37,636 bases of DNA from Anaerolineales bacterium (GTDB lineage: Bacteria > Chloroflexota > Anaerolineae > Anaerolineales > Villigracilaceae), in contig JAGVAO010000187.1 in NCBI GenBank assembly GCA_020060235.1, positions 1 through 37,636 of the forward strand. Direction: 5' to 3'. The notes below the pieces were generated by a model. The model was not told the DNA's origin, searched no databases, and worked only from the letters and a program-made list of their open reading frames with translations. The position numbers and the translations under genes were made by a program. This document shows, in pieces, positions 165-21,261 of the stretch (position 1 is the stretch's first letter; every line of letters begins with the position of its first letter).

Positions 165-2753
165 ATGCTTAAGAACCGTTTGATGTTCGTTTTTGGTTTG
201 TTGATTGTCGCAAGCCTGGTTCTGGCCGCCTGCGGCCCGGCTGCCACCCCGGAGGCCCCCGCTGCGCCCGCTGAACCGGCTGCTCCTGCCGAACCGGCTG
301 CTCCTGCCGAACCGGAACCGACTGCCGTTCCGGAACCGACTGCCGTTCCGCGCACCACCCGCACCGGCGGCTGGCTCGACCAGATTACCATGGTCGCTGT
401 CACGACCGACTCGGTCATCACCCAGCTCCAGGCTGGCGAAATTGATATCTACGCTGCGACCCTTGGCCGCGCTGAAGACTATCGCGCCGCCCAGGATGCC
501 GGTCTGCAGACCATGACCGCCTATGGTGGTTACTACGAGTTGACCTTCAACCCGGTTGGCGGTGGCGACAATGGCGCGACCTTTGAATCGACCGGCAAAC
601 TCAACCCGTTTGCTATCCCGGCCATTCGCGAAGCCATGAACATGCTGGTTGACCGCGATTACATCGTCCAGGAAATCTATGGTGGCCTGGCTGTGCCGAA
701 GTTCTTCCCCATCAACAGCGCCTTCCCCGACTATGCCCTGCTGGCCGATGTTGCCCGCGAACTGGAAGCCGTATACGCTTTCGACGAAGCCAAAGCCCAG
801 GAAGTCATCGATGCTGAAATGACAGCCCTCGGTGCCGAGAAGGTCGATGGCAAGTGGAACTTCAACGGCGAACCGGTTGTTATCAGCCTGCTCATCCGTA
901 ACGATGGCGACGGCACCCGTCTGCCGATTGGTAACTATGTTGCCGACCAGCTCGAGAAGATTGGTTTCGAAACCTTCCGCGATTACAAGACCTCTTCAGA
1001 AGCCTCCCCCATCTGGATTAGTGGCAACCCGGCCGATGGCGCCTTCCACATCTACACCGGCGGTTGGATTACCACCGCTGTGAGCCGCGATGATGGCAGC
1101 AACTTCCAGTTCTTCTACACTCCCGATGGCCTGGGCTCCCCGCTGTGGGCTGCCTACAAGCCGACTGAAGAGTTTTATAACCTGTCGGTCGTTCTTGCCA
1201 ACAATGACTTCAAGACCGTTGAAGAGCGCCGCGAACTGTTTGCCGAGGCCCTGCGCCTGAGCATGGAAGACTCCACCCGCGTGTGGCTGGTTGACCAGAC
1301 CGCCTTCAGCCCTCTGCGCCCCGGCATCGAAGTCGCTGCTGACCTCGCTGGTGGTATCCAGGGCGGTTCGCTGCAAGGCTTCACCCTGCGCTACACCGGC
1401 CAGGAAGGTGGCAACCTGACTTATGCCATGTCTGACCTGCTGACCGACCCGTGGAACCCTGTTGCTGGCTCGAACTGGGTCTATGACACCGCTCCGAAGC
1501 GCATCATCAACGACTACGGTGTCATTCCTGACCCCTTCACTGGCTTGCAATGGCCCAGCCGCGTCGAATCTGCGGTCGTAACGGTCCAGACTGGCCTGCC
1601 GGTTGGCAAGACCCTCGACTGGGTCGAGCTCGAGTTTGCTGATGAAATTGTTGTTCCGGAAGACGCTTTCGTCGACTGGGATGCCGAAAACCAGGTCTTC
1701 ATCACCTCTGCTGAGAAATTCCCCGAAGGCCAGACTGCCCTGCGTAAGAGCGTTGTGACCTACCCGGCCGACTTCTACTCGAAGACCAAGTGGCACGACG
1801 GCAACAACTTCTCGCCCGCCGACTTCCTGATGCTGTGGATTATGACCTTCGACCGCGCCAATGAAGGCAGCGCCATCTATGATGAAGGAGCCGTTTCTGC
1901 CTTCAACAGCTTCATGTCCGCCTTCAAGGGTTTCCGCATCACTTCGGCTGACCCCTTCACCTTCGAGTTCTACTCTGACCTTTACCAGTTGGATGCCGAG
2001 CTGAATGTCACCACCAGCTGGCCCGAGTACGGCTTTGGTAACGGTTCCTGGTACATGATTGCAATCGGCAACCTGGCTGAAGCCAATGGTGAACTGGCCT
2101 ACTCGTCTGCCAAGGCTGACACCAACGAAGTCGAGTGGATGTCCTACATCGACGGCCCGAGCCTCGAAGTCCTGGGCAAGTACCTCGACCAGGCTATTGC
2201 CGAGCAGTACATCCCCTACGAAGCCACCCTCGGTCAGTACATCACCCCCGACCAGGCTGTTGCCGCTTACACCAACTACAAAGCCTTCTTTGACCGCCAG
2301 GGTCACTACTGGGTCGCCACCGGCCCGTACTTCCTCGACAAAGTCTTCAGCGTCGAGAAGACCCTGACCATCAAGCACAACCCCGACCATCAGGACCTGT
2401 CGGATGAGTGGTCTGGCTTTGCCTCGCCCAAGATTGCCGAAGCCGAAGTTGACGGCGAAGGCCGTGTGACCATCGGCAGCGAAGCTGTCTTCGATGTCTA
2501 CGTAACCTTCGAAGGCGAAGACTACCCGTTGGCTGAACTTGGCAACGTCAAGTACCTGCTCTTCGATGCCACCGGCGCCCTGGTGACCGTTGGCGAAGCG
2601 GAAGCGGTGGAAGATGGTTACTTCACCGTTACCCTGAGCGCGGAAGACACCGCGAAGTTGGCCGAAGGCTCGAACAAGTTGGAAGTTGTCATAGTTTCCA
2701 AACTCGTCAGCATCCCGACCTTCGTTTCCTTCGAGTTTGTGACTTCCCAATAG
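165..2753 (+). CDS. Peptide/nickel-type ABC transporter substrate-binding lipoprotein (SBP family 5), apparently permuted
   Basis: Extracytoplasmic solute receptor of the DppA/OppA type, presumably delivering peptides or similar ligands to the permeases encoded next. A lipoprotein signal ends in LAAC (Cys23), followed by an Ala/Pro/Glu repeat linker to about residue 62. At 862 residues it is much longer than the usual 500-600. The segment order is odd. The QLQAGEIDIY motif (87-96) and the IREAMNMLVDRDYIV helix (154-168), normally in the C-terminal half, come first. The WHDG...SPADF segment (from 543) and the TGPYF segment (about 719), normally N-terminal, come after them. The last 100 residues look like an Ig-like beta domain. 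The ATG at 165 is preceded by AGGAGG at 150-155. It is first in the operon and followed by a strong hairpin. Family assignment is secure; ligand is unknown. Confidence 0.88.
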   Translation: MLKNRLMFVFGLLIVASLVLAACGPAATPEAPAAPAEPAAPAEPAAPAEPEPTAVPEPTAVPRTTRTGGWLDQITMVAVTTDSVITQLQAGEIDIYAATLGRAEDYRAAQDAGLQTMTAYGGYYELTFNPVGGGDNGATFESTGKLNPFAIPAIREAMNMLVDRDYIVQEIYGGLAVPKFFPINSAFPDYALLADVARELEAVYAFDEAKAQEVIDAEMTALGAEKVDGKWNFNGEPVVISLLIRNDGDGTRLPIGNYVADQLEKIGFETFRDYKTSSEASPIWISGNPADGAFHIYTGGWITTAVSRDDGSNFQFFYTPDGLGSPLWAAYKPTEEFYNLSVVLANNDFKTVEERRELFAEALRLSMEDSTRVWLVDQTAFSPLRPGIEVAADLAGGIQGGSLQGFTLRYTGQEGGNLTYAMSDLLTDPWNPVAGSNWVYDTAPKRIINDYGVIPDPFTGLQWPSRVESAVVTVQTGLPVGKTLDWVELEFADEIVVPEDAFVDWDAENQVFITSAEKFPEGQTALRKSVVTYPADFYSKTKWHDGNNFSPADFLMLWIMTFDRANEGSAIYDEGAVSAFNSFMSAFKGFRITSADPFTFEFYSDLYQLDAELNVTTSWPEYGFGNGSWYMIAIGNLAEANGELAYSSAKADTNEVEWMSYIDGPSLEVLGKYLDQAIAEQYIPYEATLGQYITPDQAVAAYTNYKAFFDRQGHYWVATGPYFLDKVFSVEKTLTIKHNPDHQDLSDEWSGFASPKIAEAEVDGEGRVTIGSEAVFDVYVTFEGEDYPLAELGNVKYLLFDATGALVTVGEAEAVEDGYFTVTLSAEDTAKLAEGSNKLEVVIVSKLVSIPTFVSFEFVTSQ

Positions 2754-13653: not shown

Positions 13654-13673
13654 CAACCTCGGCCCGCTTTTTT
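13641..13673 (+). terminator. Rho-independent terminator overlapping the recO stop
   Basis: Arms CGGGCCGA (13641-13648) and TCGGCCCG (13659-13666) followed by seven T's after a C (13667-13673). The opposite-strand gene ends at 13672, so this is the meeting point of two convergent units. Confidence 0.85.
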
Positions 13674-14241
13674 AGTCGATGCTCCCGACCAGCCCCAACT
13701 CGGGGGCGATGCGGCGCATGGCGGCGATGATGTTGCCGACATGTTCGCCCCACAGGTCGACGCCAAACTCTTCGGCGGCTTTTTCCATCTCGCCCCTGTG
13801 TGTTCCGGCGGCGAAAGCCTTGTCCTTCCACTTTTTCTTGACCGCGGATGGTTCCAGGTCGAGGATGGAGCGCGATGGGCGCACCAGCGCGACGGCTGTA
13901 ATTAGCCCGGTGATTTCGTCGCAGGCGGTCAGGGCCTTTTCCATCAGGCTTTCGCGCGGGATTCCGGTATTGTCGCCGTGACTGAGGATGGCGCGCACGA
14001 TGACCTCGTCCACGCCGCGCTGGCGCAGGATGGGCGCGCCTTCAGCCGGGTGCTGCTCGGCGGTGGGGTGAATTTCCCAGTCGAAATCGTGCAGCAGGCC
14101 GGTCAGCCCCCACAGTTCGACATCCTGGCCGTATTTTTCGGCGTAGAAGCGCATGGCGGCCTCGACGCACAGCATGTGCTTGACCAGGTTTTCGTTTTTG
14201 ATATATTCACGCACAAGGGCAAGGGCTTCTTCGCGGGTCAT
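13672..14241 (-). CDS. HD-domain phosphohydrolase family protein
   Basis: 189-residue cytoplasmic protein of the HD superfamily, metal-dependent phosphohydrolases acting on nucleotides or similar substrates. Visible metal-site elements are H20 (NLVKHMLCVE), the H-D pair in GLLHDFDWE, and H58/H64 in IHPTAEQHPAEG. The downstream AILSHGDNTG and TACDEITGLITA segments are typical of this subgroup. Its ATG overlaps the sulfatase stop by 4 bases, so it is the last gene of a three-gene unit. The substrate cannot be deduced. Confidence 0.85.
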   Translation of the reverse strand: MTREEALALVREYIKNENLVKHMLCVEAAMRFYAEKYGQDVELWGLTGLLHDFDWEIHPTAEQHPAEGAPILRQRGVDEVIVRAILSHGDNTGIPRESLMEKALTACDEITGLITAVALVRPSRSILDLEPSAVKKKWKDKAFAAGTHRGEMEKAAEEFGVDLWGEHVGNIIAAMRRIAPELGLVGSID

Positions 14242-15734
14242 TCCTGTTTCAATCGCTCCAATCTTGTTTTCAATTCGGATTGAATTTGTTGATATTCTTT
14301 TTGGTTGCAGCGGTTTTCGAGTTCGTAGGGGTCGTTAACCAGGTCGTATAGTTCGCACTCGCCGGTCTCATATTCGACATATTTCCAGTCATGGGTGCGA
14401 ACGGCATAGAACTGGGGGATTAATTTGCCAACCCCTTCGATAGCGGGCCAGTGCTCGATGAGCAATTCATCCCGCCAGGGCTGGGATGAATTTTCGAGCA
14501 ACGGCACCAGGCTGCGGCCATTGACGCGTTCAGGCAGCCCAGAATATTGGGCTAGTTGCAGGAAGGTGGGCACTAGGTCAATATTGGCTACCAGGTTCAA
14601 ATCGGTGCGTGGCGCATACCGCCCTGGCGCATAGACGATGAATGGAACGCGGGAGCACTCGTCGTACGGACAGTTTTTGTCAACTCCAAAGCCGTGTTCG
14701 CCGATGGTCATACCGTTGTCAGAGAGATAGACCAGGATGGTGTGTTCTTCCAGCCCTGTCTGGCGCAGAATGTTCAATATTGATGCGATTCCGTCATCCA
14801 CGGAGAGCATCGAGCGCAAGATTTGCAGGTCGGCGGTATCGAGTACCTCAGGCGGAGTTTGAACCAGGTTTTGGACATAGACCGGCTTGTCGCGCAGGTC
14901 TTCTTCGTTGAAATTAGGTGGACGGTGGGGAGTCCACTCCCAGCCGCTGCCTGCGCGGAAGGTCTCGCGATGTCGCGGGGCGGCCACATACGGTGAATGC
15001 GGATTGTAGTACCCGAGAAACAGCAGGAAAGGCTCATCTTTGGTTCGGGAGATAAATTCGAGGCCGTGTCGGGTGATGACATCGGTGCTGTAATTGGCCT
15101 GGCTGCGGGGGTATTCGACCTCCTGTCCGTTTTCTGAGAGGGTAAAGTCAAAGAAATAGCCGAACCCGTCGGGTTTGCGGCCCAGCAGCACTCGCCAGTC
15201 GTCCCAGCCGGGCGGCACATATCCGTAGGGCTGCAAATCATTATAACCGTTGAGGTATTTGCCATAATAGGCGGTGCGGTATCCGGATTCCTGCATCCAG
15301 GTACCGAGTGTGGCGCTATCTTTGAATTTGAGTGCGCTGCCCATCGGCCATTCGTTGGTGTAGACCTCGTGATTGTGGGTATATTCCCCGCTCAGGATGC
15401 TGGCGCGACTGGGACAGCACAGTGGCGTGGTTACAAATCCGCGCTCGAAGTTGACGCTGTTGGGCAACAATTCGCTGCTTAGCACGGGCATGTATTGCAA
15501 GGTATGGTAGGGCTGGTCATCTGTCAGGATGATGATTATGTTGGGACGCGCATCTTCCAGGCGCTTTGGGGATGCGGATTCCTGAATGTCCAGGTTGAAA
15601 ACAGTTGGCGTTTGGGTCGGCGCTGGGGTGTGATTTGCGCGCGGAGTCGGGGTTGCGCTGCATCCGGCCAGGGGTGTGAATCCACCCAGGATAAGTGTAA
15701 AGGCGAGCAGGCCGAGAATCCACTTCTTAATCAT
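14238..15734 (-). CDS. Sulfatase-family lipoprotein
   Basis: Predicted arylsulfatase-type hydrolase of 498 residues. A lipoprotein signal with lipobox LAGC (Cys25) and a Thr/Pro linker put it on the outer face of the membrane. The metal-binding aspartates are at 72-73 (ILTDDQ). The formylglycine motif is C106-C-P-S-R110 within TTPLCCPSRAS. A second metal/active-site region reads YLSDNGMTIGEHG, and the DWKYVEYETGECELYDLVNDP ending is typical for sulfatases. Activity would need a formylglycine-generating enzyme, not encoded here. Substrate is unknown; sulfated polysaccharides are a reasonable guess. It overlaps the upstream SanA-like gene by 8 bases. Confidence 0.92.
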   Translation of the reverse strand: MIKKWILGLLAFTLILGGFTPLAGCSATPTPRANHTPAPTQTPTVFNLDIQESASPKRLEDARPNIIIILTDDQPYHTLQYMPVLSSELLPNSVNFERGFVTTPLCCPSRASILSGEYTHNHEVYTNEWPMGSALKFKDSATLGTWMQESGYRTAYYGKYLNGYNDLQPYGYVPPGWDDWRVLLGRKPDGFGYFFDFTLSENGQEVEYPRSQANYSTDVITRHGLEFISRTKDEPFLLFLGYYNPHSPYVAAPRHRETFRAGSGWEWTPHRPPNFNEEDLRDKPVYVQNLVQTPPEVLDTADLQILRSMLSVDDGIASILNILRQTGLEEHTILVYLSDNGMTIGEHGFGVDKNCPYDECSRVPFIVYAPGRYAPRTDLNLVANIDLVPTFLQLAQYSGLPERVNGRSLVPLLENSSQPWRDELLIEHWPAIEGVGKLIPQFYAVRTHDWKYVEYETGECELYDLVNDPYELENRCNQKEYQQIQSELKTRLERLKQE

Positions 15735-16428
15735 AAATCGTCTCGCGGCGGGTCTGTTCTTCAGGCAGCGTGGAATCGGCGTTGAAGATTGGCTCCGGCT
15801 CGCCCAGGATGGGCAGCGGGCGGGTGATGTGAACGTCTATCAGGGCAGTGACGGTGGCGGCCAGTTCGCGGGCGTTCCAGAAGAGCAGCGAGATGCGCCG
15901 GTAATTGAAGTTTTCGGCGACCACGCCAACCGCATCGACGCCGAGGTTGCTGCACAGGTACAGGGCGCGCGGCATGTGAAAGTCTTGTGTTACGAGGATG
16001 GCCTGCTCGAGGCCGAAGATTTCGCGGGCGCGGTAGCAGGTGTCGTAGGTGCGCCGCCCGGCGTAGTCGAGCACAATGGCCTCGTCGGGGATGCCCAGGC
16101 TGAGGGCATACTCGCGCATGGCGGCGGGTTCGTTGTATTCCACGGTGCTGTTATCACCGCTCATCAGCAGTGTGGAGACTTTGCCCGCAAAGTAGAGTTC
16201 GGCTGCGGTGCGGACGCGGTCGCGCAGGACGGCGGAGGCGGTTCCGCTGCGGGTCAGACCGGCCCCGAAAACGATGGCCACGCTGCGGGTGGGAACGTCC
16301 TCCGCGCTATAGGTGCGCGTCCAGCCCACCAGCCCGGTCAGCAGCCGCGAAAGGGTCACAATCCCGACTCCGCCGAGCATCAGGTACCAGATGACTTTTT
16401 TGAGATTTTGGAATTGTTTTTTGAACAT
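15727..16428 (-). CDS. SanA/YdcF-like DUF218 membrane protein
   Basis: 233 residues with one N-terminal membrane helix (about 12-32) and a DUF218 domain outside it. Typical motifs are AIVFGAGLTRSG, STLLMSGDNS and ILVTQDFHMPRAL. Members such as SanA and ElyC affect envelope permeability and peptidoglycan-related lipid metabolism in E. coli; the biochemical reaction is not settled. First gene of the unit with the sulfatase and HD protein. A TACAAT box ends only seven bases before the ATG, so the mRNA may be leaderless. Confidence 0.88.
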   Translation of the reverse strand: MFKKQFQNLKKVIWYLMLGGVGIVTLSRLLTGLVGWTRTYSAEDVPTRSVAIVFGAGLTRSGTASAVLRDRVRTAAELYFAGKVSTLLMSGDNSTVEYNEPAAMREYALSLGIPDEAIVLDYAGRRTYDTCYRAREIFGLEQAILVTQDFHMPRALYLCSNLGVDAVGVVAENFNYRRISLLFWNARELAATVTALIDVHITRPLPILGEPEPIFNADSTLPEEQTRRETIYD

Positions 16429-16502: not shown

Positions 16503-18332
16503 TTATACCACTCGCTCTCGCATTTCAGAACTAATGTAATCCATCAATGAAACGACCACGGCGATAGCCAACATTTGTGCTGCGGCGGCGCGGTAGTTGA
16601 GCAGGTTGATGTTTTGTTGCAACAGGAAGCCAATACCACCGCCACCGACAAAGCCGATGATGGTGGACATGCGCACATTGATATCCCAGCGATACATGGT
16701 GTATGAGATGTAAGGCGGAACAATCTGCGGGATGACGGCATAGATGATGGTTTGCAGGCGATTGGCGCCGGTCGCTTCGATGGCTTCAAGCGGGCCTGCG
16801 GCGATGCTTTCAACCTGCTCTGAGTAGAGTTTGGCTAGGCTGACAATCGTATGCAAACCCAGAGCCAGGACGCCGGCAAAAGGCCCGATACCCACCGCGA
16901 TGACGAAAACGATTGCCATTACCAGGGCTTCGATTGAGCGCAGACCGTTAAGCAGGGTGCGGGTGACGGTATAAATCACCATGCCAACCGGCAGCGTATC
17001 TTTGGCTTTGGTCAACATCGCCAGCAGCAGACCAAGTCCGGCACCGATTCCACCGGGAATATAGTAGGTGTATTCTGGGCGTCCAATCTGGTAGAGCCAT
17101 TCTATCAGTGCGCCAAACAGGAGAAAAATGGTTGCACCTGCGGCAGCGGCCAGAACCAGGTTCAGAACTTTTAGGGTTGCCCCGGTTAGTTTTTCTGAGA
17201 TGCGCTGTCCGAGTCGGCCCAGGAAGCTGCTCAGGGTGAAACCGGCGGCAAGTGCGCCTAAGCTGGGAACCAACAATTTCAGAATGTCACTTAATTGGTA
17301 TAAGAAGTTCCCCATAAACCCAATTGAGCCGAGTGATTGATCGGCGAGCCTGCCCAGGATAGAAGTTAGCCCCGAAAGGTGGAAGAGCCAGAAGAAGCTT
17401 GCAATGGTTGCCAGTGACAGAACCAGCATGCGCGCCATGCGCAGGCCAAGCGGCGGGACAGTCAATTCTTCGGGAGGCATGGCCCAGCGAGTGGCAAACC
17501 ATATCCCCACCGGAACGAGGCTAACGACGGCGATGTTAGTGATGAGATTGCCGGTTAATGGCGCGGCGATTTTACTAATCCAATCGACAACATAGAAACC
17601 GGTCATCATACCAACCGGCAAGCCCAGGGTCGAGAGCGAGACGCTGGTTAGCGGACTTCGTACTGGTTTCATCAGGTTGCGTGCCGCAATGAAGCTGAGC
17701 GGGATGGCCAGCAGTGTGCCAACGGTCGTGGCTAGCAGCGCCAGAAAAACGGTTTCGATGATTTTGTCCCAGGTTTCATGGGCAGTGCGGGTAAAGCGAG
17801 GCAGGCCAACGTTTTCGCGCAGTGTGGCGCGAACATACTGGACTTCTTCGCTGGGGCGTTTGGGTACTTCGAATTGCAGGCTAAAGTAGCCGCTGCCATC
17901 GGTGGTAACGGTATCGCGTCCAATACTGACCAGGTTGGTCGGGTCGCTGCCCGGTACAAAACGTACAGGCCCGGAAACATTGGCGGCGAAATTGAAGCCC
18001 TCAACTGTTACAATCTCGCCTGGCTCGGCGCAGGTTGGTGAGACTGTAATATACGCATTGGATGTGTCAAGTTCGGGCTCAATAGGCGTACCCTCAGGCG
18101 GACAGGTAACATAAAATGGAAAATTGACCACTTGTTCTGCCTGTTCATATTCAAAAATTTCTGGCTGTGCCAGTGCGCGCATCACGCGAACCAGGCTGTT
18201 TTGGCGCCTTTCGCTTTGTAATTCTTCAAGGTTGACGTTGGTAATTTCAAAACCATAGGCATAAACAACCATAATCACCAAAACACCCAGGCCAAGTTGC
18301 AACGATTTCCAGATGGATTTTTTCTTTTCCAT
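16503..18332 (-). CDS. phnE: Phosphonate-type ABC transporter permease, greatly enlarged PhnE
   Basis: Membrane subunit of a phosphonate/phosphite importer, 609 residues against about 260-290 for usual PhnE. After a membrane helix (about 11-28) comes an extracytoplasmic stretch. Residues about 92-172 look like an IPT/TIG-type beta domain (ITVSPTCAEPGEIVTVEGFNF). The conserved core is split. The first part, about 186-222, has TVGTLLAIPLSFIAARNL. The second, about 449-609, has LLNGLRSIEAL, GIGPFAGVLALGLHTI and the EAA loop EAIEATGANRLQ. Between them lies a mostly hydrophobic insertion of about 225 residues. I prefer ATG 18332 with GGTGAGG 6 bases upstream, overlapping the phnC stop; GTG 18344 is possible. 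Confidence 0.88.
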   Translation of the reverse strand: MEKKKSIWKSLQLGLGVLVIMVVYAYGFEITNVNLEELQSERRQNSLVRVMRALAQPEIFEYEQAEQVVNFPFYVTCPPEGTPIEPELDTSNAYITVSPTCAEPGEIVTVEGFNFAANVSGPVRFVPGSDPTNLVSIGRDTVTTDGSGYFSLQFEVPKRPSEEVQYVRATLRENVGLPRFTRTAHETWDKIIETVFLALLATTVGTLLAIPLSFIAARNLMKPVRSPLTSVSLSTLGLPVGMMTGFYVVDWISKIAAPLTGNLITNIAVVSLVPVGIWFATRWAMPPEELTVPPLGLRMARMLVLSLATIASFFWLFHLSGLTSILGRLADQSLGSIGFMGNFLYQLSDILKLLVPSLGALAAGFTLSSFLGRLGQRISEKLTGATLKVLNLVLAAAAGATIFLLFGALIEWLYQIGRPEYTYYIPGGIGAGLGLLLAMLTKAKDTLPVGMVIYTVTRTLLNGLRSIEALVMAIVFVIAVGIGPFAGVLALGLHTIVSLAKLYSEQVESIAAGPLEAIEATGANRLQTIIYAVIPQIVPPYISYTMYRWDINVRMSTIIGFVGGGGIGFLLQQNINLLNYRAAAAQMLAIAVVVSLMDYISSEMRERVV

Positions 18333-18340
18333 AACCAGCC

Positions 18341-19093
18341 TCACCCGACGCGCTCGGCGTCACGCCCGTAAATTTCTTTAAATTTTTTGTCGTCGATATC
18401 TTGCGGCAAGCCCTCAAAGACCAGTTCACCTTCATTTAGGGCTACCACCCTGTCAGCATACCGATGCACCAGGTCAAGGAAATGTAGGCTGCACAAAACC
18501 GTAACACCATCATTTTTGTTGATTTCTTCGAGGTGTTTCATAATACTGTGTGCCAATACCGGGTCAAGGCTGGCAACCGGCTCGTCAGCCAGGATGATTT
18601 CAGGGTCTTGCATCAATGCGCGGGCAATACCCACACGCTGCTGCTGCCCGCCGCTCAGTTCATCGGCGCGATGATTGGCTTTGTCAGCAATGCCGACGCG
18701 TTCCAATTGTTTCATGGCTTTTTTTACATCGTTGCCCGGGAAGCGGTTGAGCAAACTCCAGGCCGGGTTGACATACCCCAGCCGCCCGGCAAGCACATTT
18801 GTCAAAACTGGCGAGCGATGCACCAGGTTGAAATGTTGGAAGACCATGCCAATTTTGCGCCGAATGCGGCGCATTTCATCTGGGGTGGCGGCGGTAATAT
18901 CTTCCCCATTCCAGAAAATTTTACCGTCGGTGGGCTCGATCAGGCGATTGATGCAGCGTAAAAGGGTCGATTTCCCCGAACCGCTCAATCCAATGACGGC
19001 CAAAAATTGTCCTTTTGGAACATCAAAGGTGACGTTGTGCAACGCTTGTACGCCGCCATCATATATTTTGGTCAGGTTTTTTATCTGGAGCAT
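18341..19093 (-). CDS. phnC: Phosphonate-type ABC transporter ATPase
   Basis: ATPase of 250 residues, normal for PhnC. Walker A is GLSGSGKST, Q-loop MVFQHFNLVHR (typical of PhnC), signature LSGGQQQR, Walker B IILADEPVASLDP and H-loop CSLHFLDL. The IGMVFQHFNLVHRSPVLTN and HRADELSGG segments match phosphonate ATPases well. The start is ATG 19093 with a weak AAAGAG upstream. It precedes phnE, whose ribosome binding site overlaps this gene's stop codon. Confidence 0.94.
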   Translation of the reverse strand: MLQIKNLTKIYDGGVQALHNVTFDVPKGQFLAVIGLSGSGKSTLLRCINRLIEPTDGKIFWNGEDITAATPDEMRRIRRKIGMVFQHFNLVHRSPVLTNVLAGRLGYVNPAWSLLNRFPGNDVKKAMKQLERVGIADKANHRADELSGGQQQRVGIARALMQDPEIILADEPVASLDPVLAHSIMKHLEEINKNDGVTVLCSLHFLDLVHRYADRVVALNEGELVFEGLPQDIDDKKFKEIYGRDAERVG

Positions 19094-19306: not shown

Positions 19307-20428
19307 TTAGTCGAGCGTCTCAAGGGTCACGCCGGCTTCAGCCACCATCAGGCGGATGAAGTCATATTCCGCATCGGTCGCAACAACCAAGCCCGACCAG
19401 CCGTAGAAGTCTTCGCTACCCAATGACTGGCCCCAGGCCTCGGTCTCAGCAAAGGCTATCAGGGCTTCTTCAATTTGGGCGCGCAGTTCAGCCGGGAATT
19501 CGGGGCCGAAGGACAGGGTGTCATTCGGGATGTCGGGAGAGAGCTGCAGGATGCGAACTTTTTGGACGACATCAGGGAACTCTTCGCGGATGTTGGCGCG
19601 GGCATCGAGGATGCGGTAGCCGTCGCAGAGCAACTGGCTGCCGTCGTCGTTCAGGGCGCAGGTGTTAACGTCAACCGGAACTTCGGGGTCCATGCCAACA
19701 GCCCAGCGGTCGGCACCTTCAGGTGCGGCCCAGGCGCTGTAGAAAGCGGTACCGAAATCGGCTTCGCCGTTATAGACAGCGCGCACCGATTGCGGGTGAC
19801 CACCCGCGGCGATGGTTTCACCGGGAGTGACGCCAGCTTCTTTCAGCATGACCGAAGGAACCAGGAAACCGGAGGTGGAACCAGCATCGGGGTAGGCCCA
19901 TTTCTTTCCTTCCAAGTCTTCGATGCTCTGGATGTCACTGTCGCGGGCAACCACAATCATGGTCCAATACACGCCCCAACCACGGCGCTCAGCTTTGAAG
20001 GCAACATCCACACCGCATAGGTCGTTCGCGAGAACATAACCGAAGGCGGGGATGAAGGCCATTGTGTCTTCGGGAGAAGCGCACATTTCTTCGATGGTGG
20101 CGGCATACGAAGTCGGAATGCTGACTTCGAAGGTCAGGCCAGTGGCTTCGTTGAGCGCCTTGGCCATCACATCACCACCGGTGACGATAACGTTGGCTTC
20201 CACCGAGGGGACGAACAGCACCTTGATAGGCCGTTCTGGCGAACCAATTTCAGGCCCGGCAGGTTCTTCGGTCGGAGCCGCAGGCTCTTCGGTCGGTTCC
20301 GGCGCGGCCGGTTCTTCAACCGGGGCAGCGGGTTCTTCGGTCGCCGGGACTTCGGCGGGGCCGCAGGCCGAAAGCACGAAGGCGAAAACGGCCAGAAGGG
20401 CAAACAACACATACAACGAGCGTTTCAT
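19307..20428 (-). CDS. phnD: Phosphonate/phosphite/phosphate-type ABC transporter substrate-binding lipoprotein
   Basis: Receptor lipoprotein of 373 residues. Lipobox LSAC (Cys21) is followed by a Pro/Glu/Ala linker to about residue 60. The mature domain has PhnD-family features: IKVLFVPSVEANVI near the start, then EMCASPEDTMAFIPAFGYVLA, the GKKWAYPDAGSTSGFLVPS segment (ligand-binding Ser/Thr region in this family), and HPQSVRAVYNGEADFGTAFYSAW. GAGGAG precedes the ATG. First gene of phnD-phnC-phnE. Whether the ligand is phosphonate, phosphite or another oxyanion cannot be told; no C-P lyase genes are in the window. Confidence 0.92.
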   Translation of the reverse strand: MKRSLYVLFALLAVFAFVLSACGPAEVPATEEPAAPVEEPAAPEPTEEPAAPTEEPAGPEIGSPERPIKVLFVPSVEANVIVTGGDVMAKALNEATGLTFEVSIPTSYAATIEEMCASPEDTMAFIPAFGYVLANDLCGVDVAFKAERRGWGVYWTMIVVARDSDIQSIEDLEGKKWAYPDAGSTSGFLVPSVMLKEAGVTPGETIAAGGHPQSVRAVYNGEADFGTAFYSAWAAPEGADRWAVGMDPEVPVDVNTCALNDDGSQLLCDGYRILDARANIREEFPDVVQKVRILQLSPDIPNDTLSFGPEFPAELRAQIEEALIAFAETEAWGQSLGSEDFYGWSGLVVATDAEYDFIRLMVAEAGVTLETLD

Positions 20429-20554: not shown

Positions 20555-20586
20555 TTGCCCGGCCGCGGGCGGAAAGTTTGTATAAT
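20555..20586 (+). promoter_or_regulatory. TATAAT promoter placed for a leaderless transcript
   Basis: Perfect TATAAT at 20581-20586, only six bases before the ATG at 20593. The best -35 match, TTGCCC (20555-20560), has a long 20-base spacer. No Shine-Dalgarno precedes the ATG. Confidence 0.55.
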
Positions 20587-20592
20587 AAAAAC

Positions 20593-21261
20593 ATGAACAA
20601 AACATCGGTTGTATTTTTCCTTGTCTTTGTGGTTGTGCTTGTCGGCGCAGCCTACTACCTGGTCACATCCATCCAGCAGAGCGCTGAAAGCGCAATCGGC
20701 GGGGCTGTGGCCCCTTTCCAGCAGAGCAATGCCGCCCTGCAGACCCAGGTCTCGAACCTGATGAATCCCACCCCGACCATCATCCCCGACCCTGTCACCT
20801 ACATCCAGGAAGTGCGCGCATTGGCGCGGCTGGAGACCATCCAGTACAGCGTCGAGAAGGTGATTACGGCAGAAATCGGCCAGGGTAGTTTCGGCTTCCT
20901 GTTTGGCGACAAGCTGCTCTTTGTGGCGCACGGGATAGTGATTGCTGGCATTGATATGGAGAAAATCCAGCCCGGCGATATGCAGCTGGTCAATGGCGTA
21001 CTCCAGGTGCGCTTGCCCCCGGCTGAAGTATTTGTGGCCACGCTCAACAACGAGAAGTCATATGTCTATGACCGCAGTACCGGAATCCTGACCAAGAGCG
21101 TACAAGACCTCGAAACCCTGGCGCGCCAGGCGGCGGAACGCGAAATCCTGATGGCCGCCCAGGAAGACGGCATCCTGCTGCAAGCCCAGCGCAACGCTGA
21201 ACTCTTCCTGTACAAGTTCTTCCAGGCGCTTGGATATAAGGATGTAAGGTTTATCCAGTAA
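20593..21261 (+). CDS. DUF4230-family membrane-anchored protein
   Basis: 222 residues from ATG 20593; a TTG at 20578 would overlap the -10 box and is less likely. An N-terminal membrane helix (about 4-25) is followed by a short coiled segment (QSNAALQTQVSNL) and a DUF4230 domain. That domain includes the ARLETIQYSVEKVITAEIGQG segment, GDKLLFVAHGIVIAGIDMEKI and LPPAEVFVATLNNEKSYVYDRSTGI. Function of the family is not established; the topology suggests a surface-exposed domain. It stands alone and ends in a terminator shared with the opposite gene. Confidence 0.85.
   Translation: MNKTSVVFFLVFVVVLVGAAYYLVTSIQQSAESAIGGAVAPFQQSNAALQTQVSNLMNPTPTIIPDPVTYIQEVRALARLETIQYSVEKVITAEIGQGSFGFLFGDKLLFVAHGIVIAGIDMEKIQPGDMQLVNGVLQVRLPPAEVFVATLNNEKSYVYDRSTGILTKSVQDLETLARQAAEREILMAAQEDGILLQAQRNAELFLYKFFQALGYKDVRFIQ

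Follow-up and report, generated by a model that had tools for sequence, protein, structure and literature searches.

A PhnE-type permease from Anaerolineales with a predicted six-helix insert inside its core: a lineage-specific elaboration found in Chloroflexota

Introduction

Importer cores of the MetI-like fold are usually regarded as compact, with extra helices added at their ends. The phnE-like gene considered here raises the question of what a long hydrophobic stretch is doing inside such a core, and whether it represents a second core, a new module or a fault of the assembly. The gene lies in what we call the window, that is, the whole 37,636-nucleotide stretch of DNA from an Anaerolineales bacterium that was analysed. 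In its product, the first core helix is separated from the second by an insert 1.4 times as long as TM3–TM6, a ratio that rises to about two in some relatives. We found it to be a real, conserved and lineage-specific elaboration of a known permease, seen in Chloroflexota only in the searches that we ran. Among the titles and abstract openings of the CC-licensed PMC literature, no paper on such an insert-in-core architecture of PhnE was found.

Results

The permease gene and its operon

The initial annotation had read a frame at 16503–18332 as a PhnE permease, and both parts of this statement proved sound. The annotation named no strand; the frame is real and is encoded on the minus strand, while the plus strand, read in frame 1 over the same positions, has many stops. 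Its end at 18332 is an internal ATG (M5, 609 aa), which is preceded by a GGTGAGG stretch and, judging from the nucleotide sequence, is likelier to be the start of PhnE than GTG 18344. The protein matches NCBIfam TIGR01097 in two stretches with 238.6 bits against a cut-off of 216.7 (the C-terminal stretch by itself scores 215.3 bits, slightly below the cut-off), as well as Pfam PF00528 (E 3.8e-12). Its translation also includes GPLEAIEATGANRLQTIIYAVIPQIVP, which we take to be the EAA coupling motif. The window's own genome has a single copy of this type of gene. A PhnE-like core is present in a phage-linked family, too: PHROG phrog_6743 (582 positions, unknown function) matches residues 433–611 with E 1.1e-24.

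Head to tail on the minus strand, the genes follow the order PhnD, PhnC, PhnE, SanA-like DUF218 protein, sulfatase-fold protein and HD protein (Table 1), where PhnD and PhnE are followed by gaps of 213 and 74 bases, respectively, while the remaining neighbours overlap. Of 52 insert-type loci, 50 were found to have PhnC and 45 PhnD; where PhnD is missing, little or no upstream sequence is available in six cases, the seventh being L040. SanA and HD neighbours also follow some insert-free relatives, and their presence behind both types means that the transport task is probably unchanged. Several side features of these loci deserve a comment. Some genomes have two adjacent PhnE genes, each with an insert; seven loci (L131, L149, L153, L154, L155, L172 and L176) have a further PhnC-like ABC ATPase gene after the insert-bearing phnE; and in one (L011) an 89-aa frame at G012:C1:467907-468146, directly after the insert-bearing phnE, duplicates the PhnE C-terminus, with 88% identity to the window. 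In the window itself, a divergent protein of 227 aa whose start resembles a signal anchor is encoded on the plus strand at 20578–21261, having a homologue in 13 of the 52 loci and no NCBIfam match.

As for the substrate, PhnJ is absent from the window's own genome (96.9% complete), so that transport of phosphonate is unsupported; across 41 genomes, PhnJ is present in one. No phosphonatase (TIGR01422) passed the cut-off in the window's genome, and none of the control genomes passed either. The binding protein fails the PhnD equivalog TIGR03431 (95.9 vs 261.1 bits), its nearest solved chain by sequence being HtxB, followed by a PhnD-type chain and PtxB. According to a title cited within PMC10574752, PhnCDE can carry phosphate too. 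From this we infer phosphite, hypophosphite, phosphate or a phosphate ester as candidate substrates. In these genomes, the label "phosphonate permease" given by automatic annotation masks an altered protein whose substrate may be a different one.

Table 1. Features of the permease gene and its neighbours in the window.
Feature	Residues	Positions	Strand	Basis or remark
phnE-like permease gene		16503..18344	minus	613 aa from GTG 18344; TIGR01097
TM1	11-34	18243..18314	minus	AF2 helix; hydropathy over 76 homologues
Extracytoplasmic Ig-like (IPT/TIG-like) domain, predicted	64-184	17793..18155	minus	sub-threshold Pfam, fold match, AF2 model
TM2 to ARNLM, first MetI-like core helix	186-225	17670..17789	minus	AF2 model and superposition
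Insert, six predicted transmembrane helices	226-446	17007..17669	minus	homologue alignment, hydropathy, AF2 model
Remaining MetI-like core, EAA coupling region 517-544	453-612	16509..16988	minus	Pfam/NCBIfam, AF2 model, superposition
PhnC ATPase		18341..19093	minus	TIGR02315, 337.9 bits, cut-off 266.1
PhnD-type binding protein		19307..20428	minus	TIGR01098, 149.5 bits, cut-off 112.05
SanA-like DUF218 protein, next gene downstream		15727..16428	minus	homologue in 15/52 insert-type loci
Sulfatase-fold protein, overlaps SanA-like gene		14238..15734	minus	homologue in 3/52 insert-type loci
HD/HDIG-domain protein, overlaps sulfatase-fold gene		13672..14241	minus	homologue in 14/52 insert-type loci

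A core split in sequence and predicted to be intact in space

An AlphaFold2 model of PhnE reached a mean pLDDT of 94.7 and a pTM of 0.81. It was built from a 136-row alignment comprising 76 of the 78 insert rows (two with X were dropped) and a random draw of 60 of the 78 insert-free rows, and superseded an earlier 12-row model with a poor core. The model predicts a helix at 11–34, strands within 64–184, a helix at 186–219, the insert helices and then the remaining core. Its best Foldseek matches were ABC importer permeases; no PhnE chain was found among PDB sequences in a sequence search with two queries. When MetI chain 3tuj_B was superposed on the model (VIA-align), 205 of its 215 residues were aligned over the range 184..613, with Z 21.4 and 2.4 Å. 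Of the 430 residues spanned, about 225 were thus passed over, which is the size of the insert. The model confidently predicts a core that is split in sequence and intact in three dimensions, and this superposition lends no support to the earlier proposal that the insertion would alter the geometry of the subunit core.

The Ig-like domain

A beta domain lying before the core and outside the cell had been proposed from the outset, and the model agrees, placing the strands at 64–184 between TM1 and TM2, in the outside loop directly ahead of the first core helix. The more specific IPT/TIG-like label stands in part: a beta-sandwich is predicted over 64–184, whereas the match to Pfam PF01833 at 101–169 (E 0.017, 15.5 bits) falls short of the cut-off of 20.9. 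Residues 96–176 of the first, 12-row model superposed on neocarzinostatin-type Ig-like chains with Z 7.8–8.4 over 81–82 residues, a match sufficient for an Ig-like fold to be predicted for the sandwich, yet a modest one with Z near 8 alone.

What could such a domain do? In MalF, the large P2 domain also lies outside, in the loop that leads into the first core helix. Of the two roles initially suggested for the domain, docking of PhnD is plausible by analogy with this arrangement, while ligand binding is unsupported. A passage of one article describes the P2 region of MalF as directly contacting MalE (PMC3150292).

We sorted 170 distinct proteins into 153 complete single PhnE, five fused and 12 cut ones. 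Among the complete single proteins, 77 combine the Ig-like domain with the insert, 27 have the domain only, nine the insert only and 40 neither, a count made with an Ig-like profile drawn from insert-bearing rows, so that "no Ig" includes PhnE1 proteins with a possibly diverged domain. Since each occurs without the other, the domain and the insert are two independent modules, a point missed by the initial annotation; the domain is common to insert-free relatives as well. All five fused proteins (L114, L115, L116, L117 and L118; 846, 874, 872, 903 and 713 aa) contain two complete PhnE cores in one frame, four of them matching the Ig-like domain, and have an N-terminal membrane stretch of the PGLGQ type. 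Derivation of the insert from the PGLGQ-type N-terminal domain of PhnE1 was considered and rejected (profile Prob 0.2%).

Place and topology of the insert

Residues 226–451 separate ARNLM (221–225) from the TM3 part of the core. The initial annotation had described about 225 mostly hydrophobic residues with additional helices at this place, and this description was borne out. Mean hydropathy over 76 insert-bearing homologues peaks at 17–31 and ~202–219, then six times in the insert (~237–255, 267–283, 306–326, 346–370, 395–412 and 432–448) and then in the core; the model has six helices in the insert, at 232–264, 267–288, 299–337, 339–385, 388–418 and 423–444. The insert spans 220–237 residues, mostly 226, in 78 distinct homologues measured alike, and in insert-free relatives residue 226 is joined straight to ~452. 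Such a near-constant length and clean join indicate that the insert is due neither to chance nor to an assembly fault.

Loop charges, counted in 76 homologues with helix limits set by hand, are consistent with six crossings. Mean K+R in the loops expected inside is 2.57 before the first insert helix (a), 1.79 in b–c, 2.53 in d–e and 3.05 before TM3, against 0.20, 1.05 and 0.55 in the three loops expected outside; the weak case is the inside b–c loop, with a net charge of -0.29. The insert is confidently predicted to leave from, and return to, the cytoplasmic TM2–TM3 loop.

No Pfam or NCBIfam family was found for the window's insert. Scans of 12 inserts against both collections gave only scattered matches, each confined to one or two of the inserts (best E 0.0028 and 0.0016), which we read as chance. 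When the whole model was compared, structure matches covering the insert region were weak, namely pentameric channel or unrelated transporter chains. A search for an internal repeat returned a weak 87-column self-match (Prob 0.6%), and we claim no repeat.

Distribution, size variants and origin

A search of 396 genomes of the window's class with the insert profile gave matches in 59, part of which are known by their search-table row alone; one of the 59 is probably a chance match (G630, E 5.4e-4, in frame L169, which lacks a PhnE core). In the phylum, 13 of 400 genomes match and all 13 belong to the window's class; judging from what appears to be the same draw of genomes, 345 of the 400 lie outside it. 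A peptide pattern taken from the start of the insert was found in 53 contigs among the genomes of 84,980 species, and all 53 are titled as Chloroflexota taxa, including Anaerolineales, Anaerolineae, Caldilineales and plain Chloroflexi, many titles giving no class; divergent inserts in other phyla would escape a single pattern of this kind. One contig, with Herpetosiphon in its title, breaks off 36 residues into the insert. No match of the window's insert was found in plasmids (tblastn). Confinement of the homologues to Chloroflexota, which the initial annotation had proposed to check, therefore agrees with all searches run and, for the sampled genomes, narrows to the window's class.

Inserts fall into size groups of about 145–170, 226 and 290–345 residues; measured from ARNLM to the core, distances of 144–169 occur in five distinct insert rows, 190–270 in 80 and 292–344 in eight. 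Hydropathy suggests that these sizes correspond to four, six and eight helices, with the proviso that a simple threshold miscounts them (two to four regions in short inserts, four to seven in middle ones and seven, one of double length, in long ones). The short type includes L126, L167 and L168, which carry a 144-residue insert in this same position, do not match the Ig-like domain and have an additional N-terminal membrane stretch that we would presume to be RDD-like; Pfam on L126 gave the permease domain alone. At the other extreme, L159–L166 (691–746 aa) have inserts of 292–344 residues, probably of eight helices.

We then placed the insert on a tree of the core. Insert columns were excluded, rows with X, fewer than 185 letters, cut cores or no ARNLM-type motif were dropped, and thinning of the 171 distinct rows at 90% identity left 112; the result is a quick tree with several long branches. 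On it, two changes suffice to explain the insert state, compared with 37.5 in shuffles, and a single clade of the 54 insert rows was not rejected (p-AU 0.43). The exception is L099, an insert-free row that is placed with three 4-helix rows. Such a topology suggests that the insert was probably gained once within Chloroflexota, followed by gains or losses of helix pairs (four, six or eight helices).

The insert is under purifying selection, retained but loosely. Mean pairwise identity is 0.37 for the insert, 0.41 for the Ig-like domain and 0.80 for the TM3–6 core; dN/dS of the insert is 0.07–0.30 in the 14 closest of 79 pairs, that of the core being at most 0.09. G245, F343 and Y418 are identical in 76 of 76 insert rows. 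Conserved motifs expected outside comprise F343, F347, D353, W416 and Y418, while conserved charged positions are few (R286, R305 and D353).

Discussion

What does the insert do?

Taking these observations together, we lean towards the following scenario, which we consider rather probable. PhnE would serve as permease in a type I ABC importer of the composition PhnC2-PhnE2-PhnD and work as a homodimer in an ordinary alternating-access cycle, although some relatives have two PhnE genes. Each subunit is confidently predicted to have one MetI-like core, TM2 and then TM3–TM6, with the EAA region for coupling to PhnC. The Ig-like domain might serve as a docking post for PhnD at the place taken by the P2 loop in MalF. 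The insert is most likely an accessory bundle at the periphery: because the core is complete without it, it would lie at the core edge, away from both the pathway and the ATPase contact, and brace or anchor the assembly. This bundle was probably gained once in Chloroflexota. The low conservation of the insert fits a brace, and also other roles.

One such role would be that of a captured membrane protein keeping a function beyond bracing, as a regulator, a sensor, or a second transport or lipid path. Purifying selection, the conserved motifs expected outside and the lack of a Pfam or NCBIfam family all speak for this option, and the motifs could mean a more specific job. However, no homologue was recognised outside PhnE (apart from the weak, probably chance match in L169), charged conserved positions are scarce and helix pairs come and go; hence, we regard capture as unlikely, if worth keeping in mind. 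A related scenario, to which we give a somewhat lower probability, sees a PhnD-fed transporter of a non-phosphonate substrate in which the size-variable module of four, six or eight helices, nested in the core, adds a function of its own in gating, sensing or lateral access.

It could also be supposed that the insert substitutes for a second permease, with a single insert-bearing PhnE standing in for a PhnE1/PhnE2 pair. In 41 genomes, the window's own and 40 relatives, the insert type occurs in 12 and the insert-free type of the same clade in 15, and the two are together in none (10 genomes have neither, two are undecidable owing to contig ends and two have weak matches alone). This separation speaks for substitution, but genomes from at least two families of the class (f20 and f128) carry paired PhnE genes that both contain an insert, and single insert-free PhnEs of the same clade exist (L014 and L017), so we find substitution improbable.

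A tandem fusion was the alternative named in advance in the initial annotation. The insert would be a degenerate second PhnE core, made of TM3'–TM6' from one copy followed by TM1'' and TM2'' from the next. Six helices running from inside to inside are the topology one would expect of such a remnant, true PhnE1-PhnE2 fusions (713–903 aa) occur in the class, the last insert helix sits at the place of TM2 and PhnE profiles extend slightly into it. Nevertheless, the insert profile (78 rows) reached a Prob of only 0.8% at best against the core profile (78 rows), and the 4- and 8-helix variants at most 0.7%, whereas the same method linked the 6-helix insert to its 4- and 8-helix variants with 99.2, 99.1 and 81.8%. 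Moreover, the five fused proteins retain two full cores and none of them matches the insert profile, and the model has one MetI-like core over 184–613 with the insert skipped. On sequence grounds, the insert is not recognisably a second PhnE core; a duplicated core is disfavoured, and we deem a fusion origin very improbable. Finally, an assembly artefact, frameshift or relic is practically inconceivable, for even though the members stem almost entirely from draft genomes or MAGs, there are 93 distinct insert-bearing rows of nearly constant insert length, no internal stops among the matches listed and dN/dS values under 0.31 for the 14 listed pairs.

With the peripheral bundle as our preferred reading, we have an insert that is kept under selection in a bacterial class while changing size by apparent helix pairs, and natural versions of the same permease with zero, four, six and eight helices make the role of accessory helices testable.

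Comparison with known systems

Among the systems compared, the core fold is shared with MetI of MetNI (3tuj, 3tui and 3dhw), where the loop at the insert site is short, and which has neither an Ig-like domain nor an insert. MalF of MalFGK2 likewise has a large outside domain before its first core helix, by way of which it contacts the binding protein in the passage cited above; its likeness to the window's Ig-like domain is one of position. In contrast to the window's protein, MalF is not known to have helices inserted within its core.

PhnE of the PhnCDE importers (TIGR01097) is alike in its score over the curated cut-off, its EAA region and its phnD-phnC-phnE operon. The window's protein differs in having 613 aa against a model of 252 positions, with an Ig-like domain and a six-helix insert in addition, and in belonging to a genome without PhnJ. 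Finally, the phylum also has PhnE1/PhnE2 pairs and fusions; they form neighbouring clades of the same core tree, and many of them have the Ig-like domain; they differ in that their TM2 is joined directly to TM3, with no insert in between.
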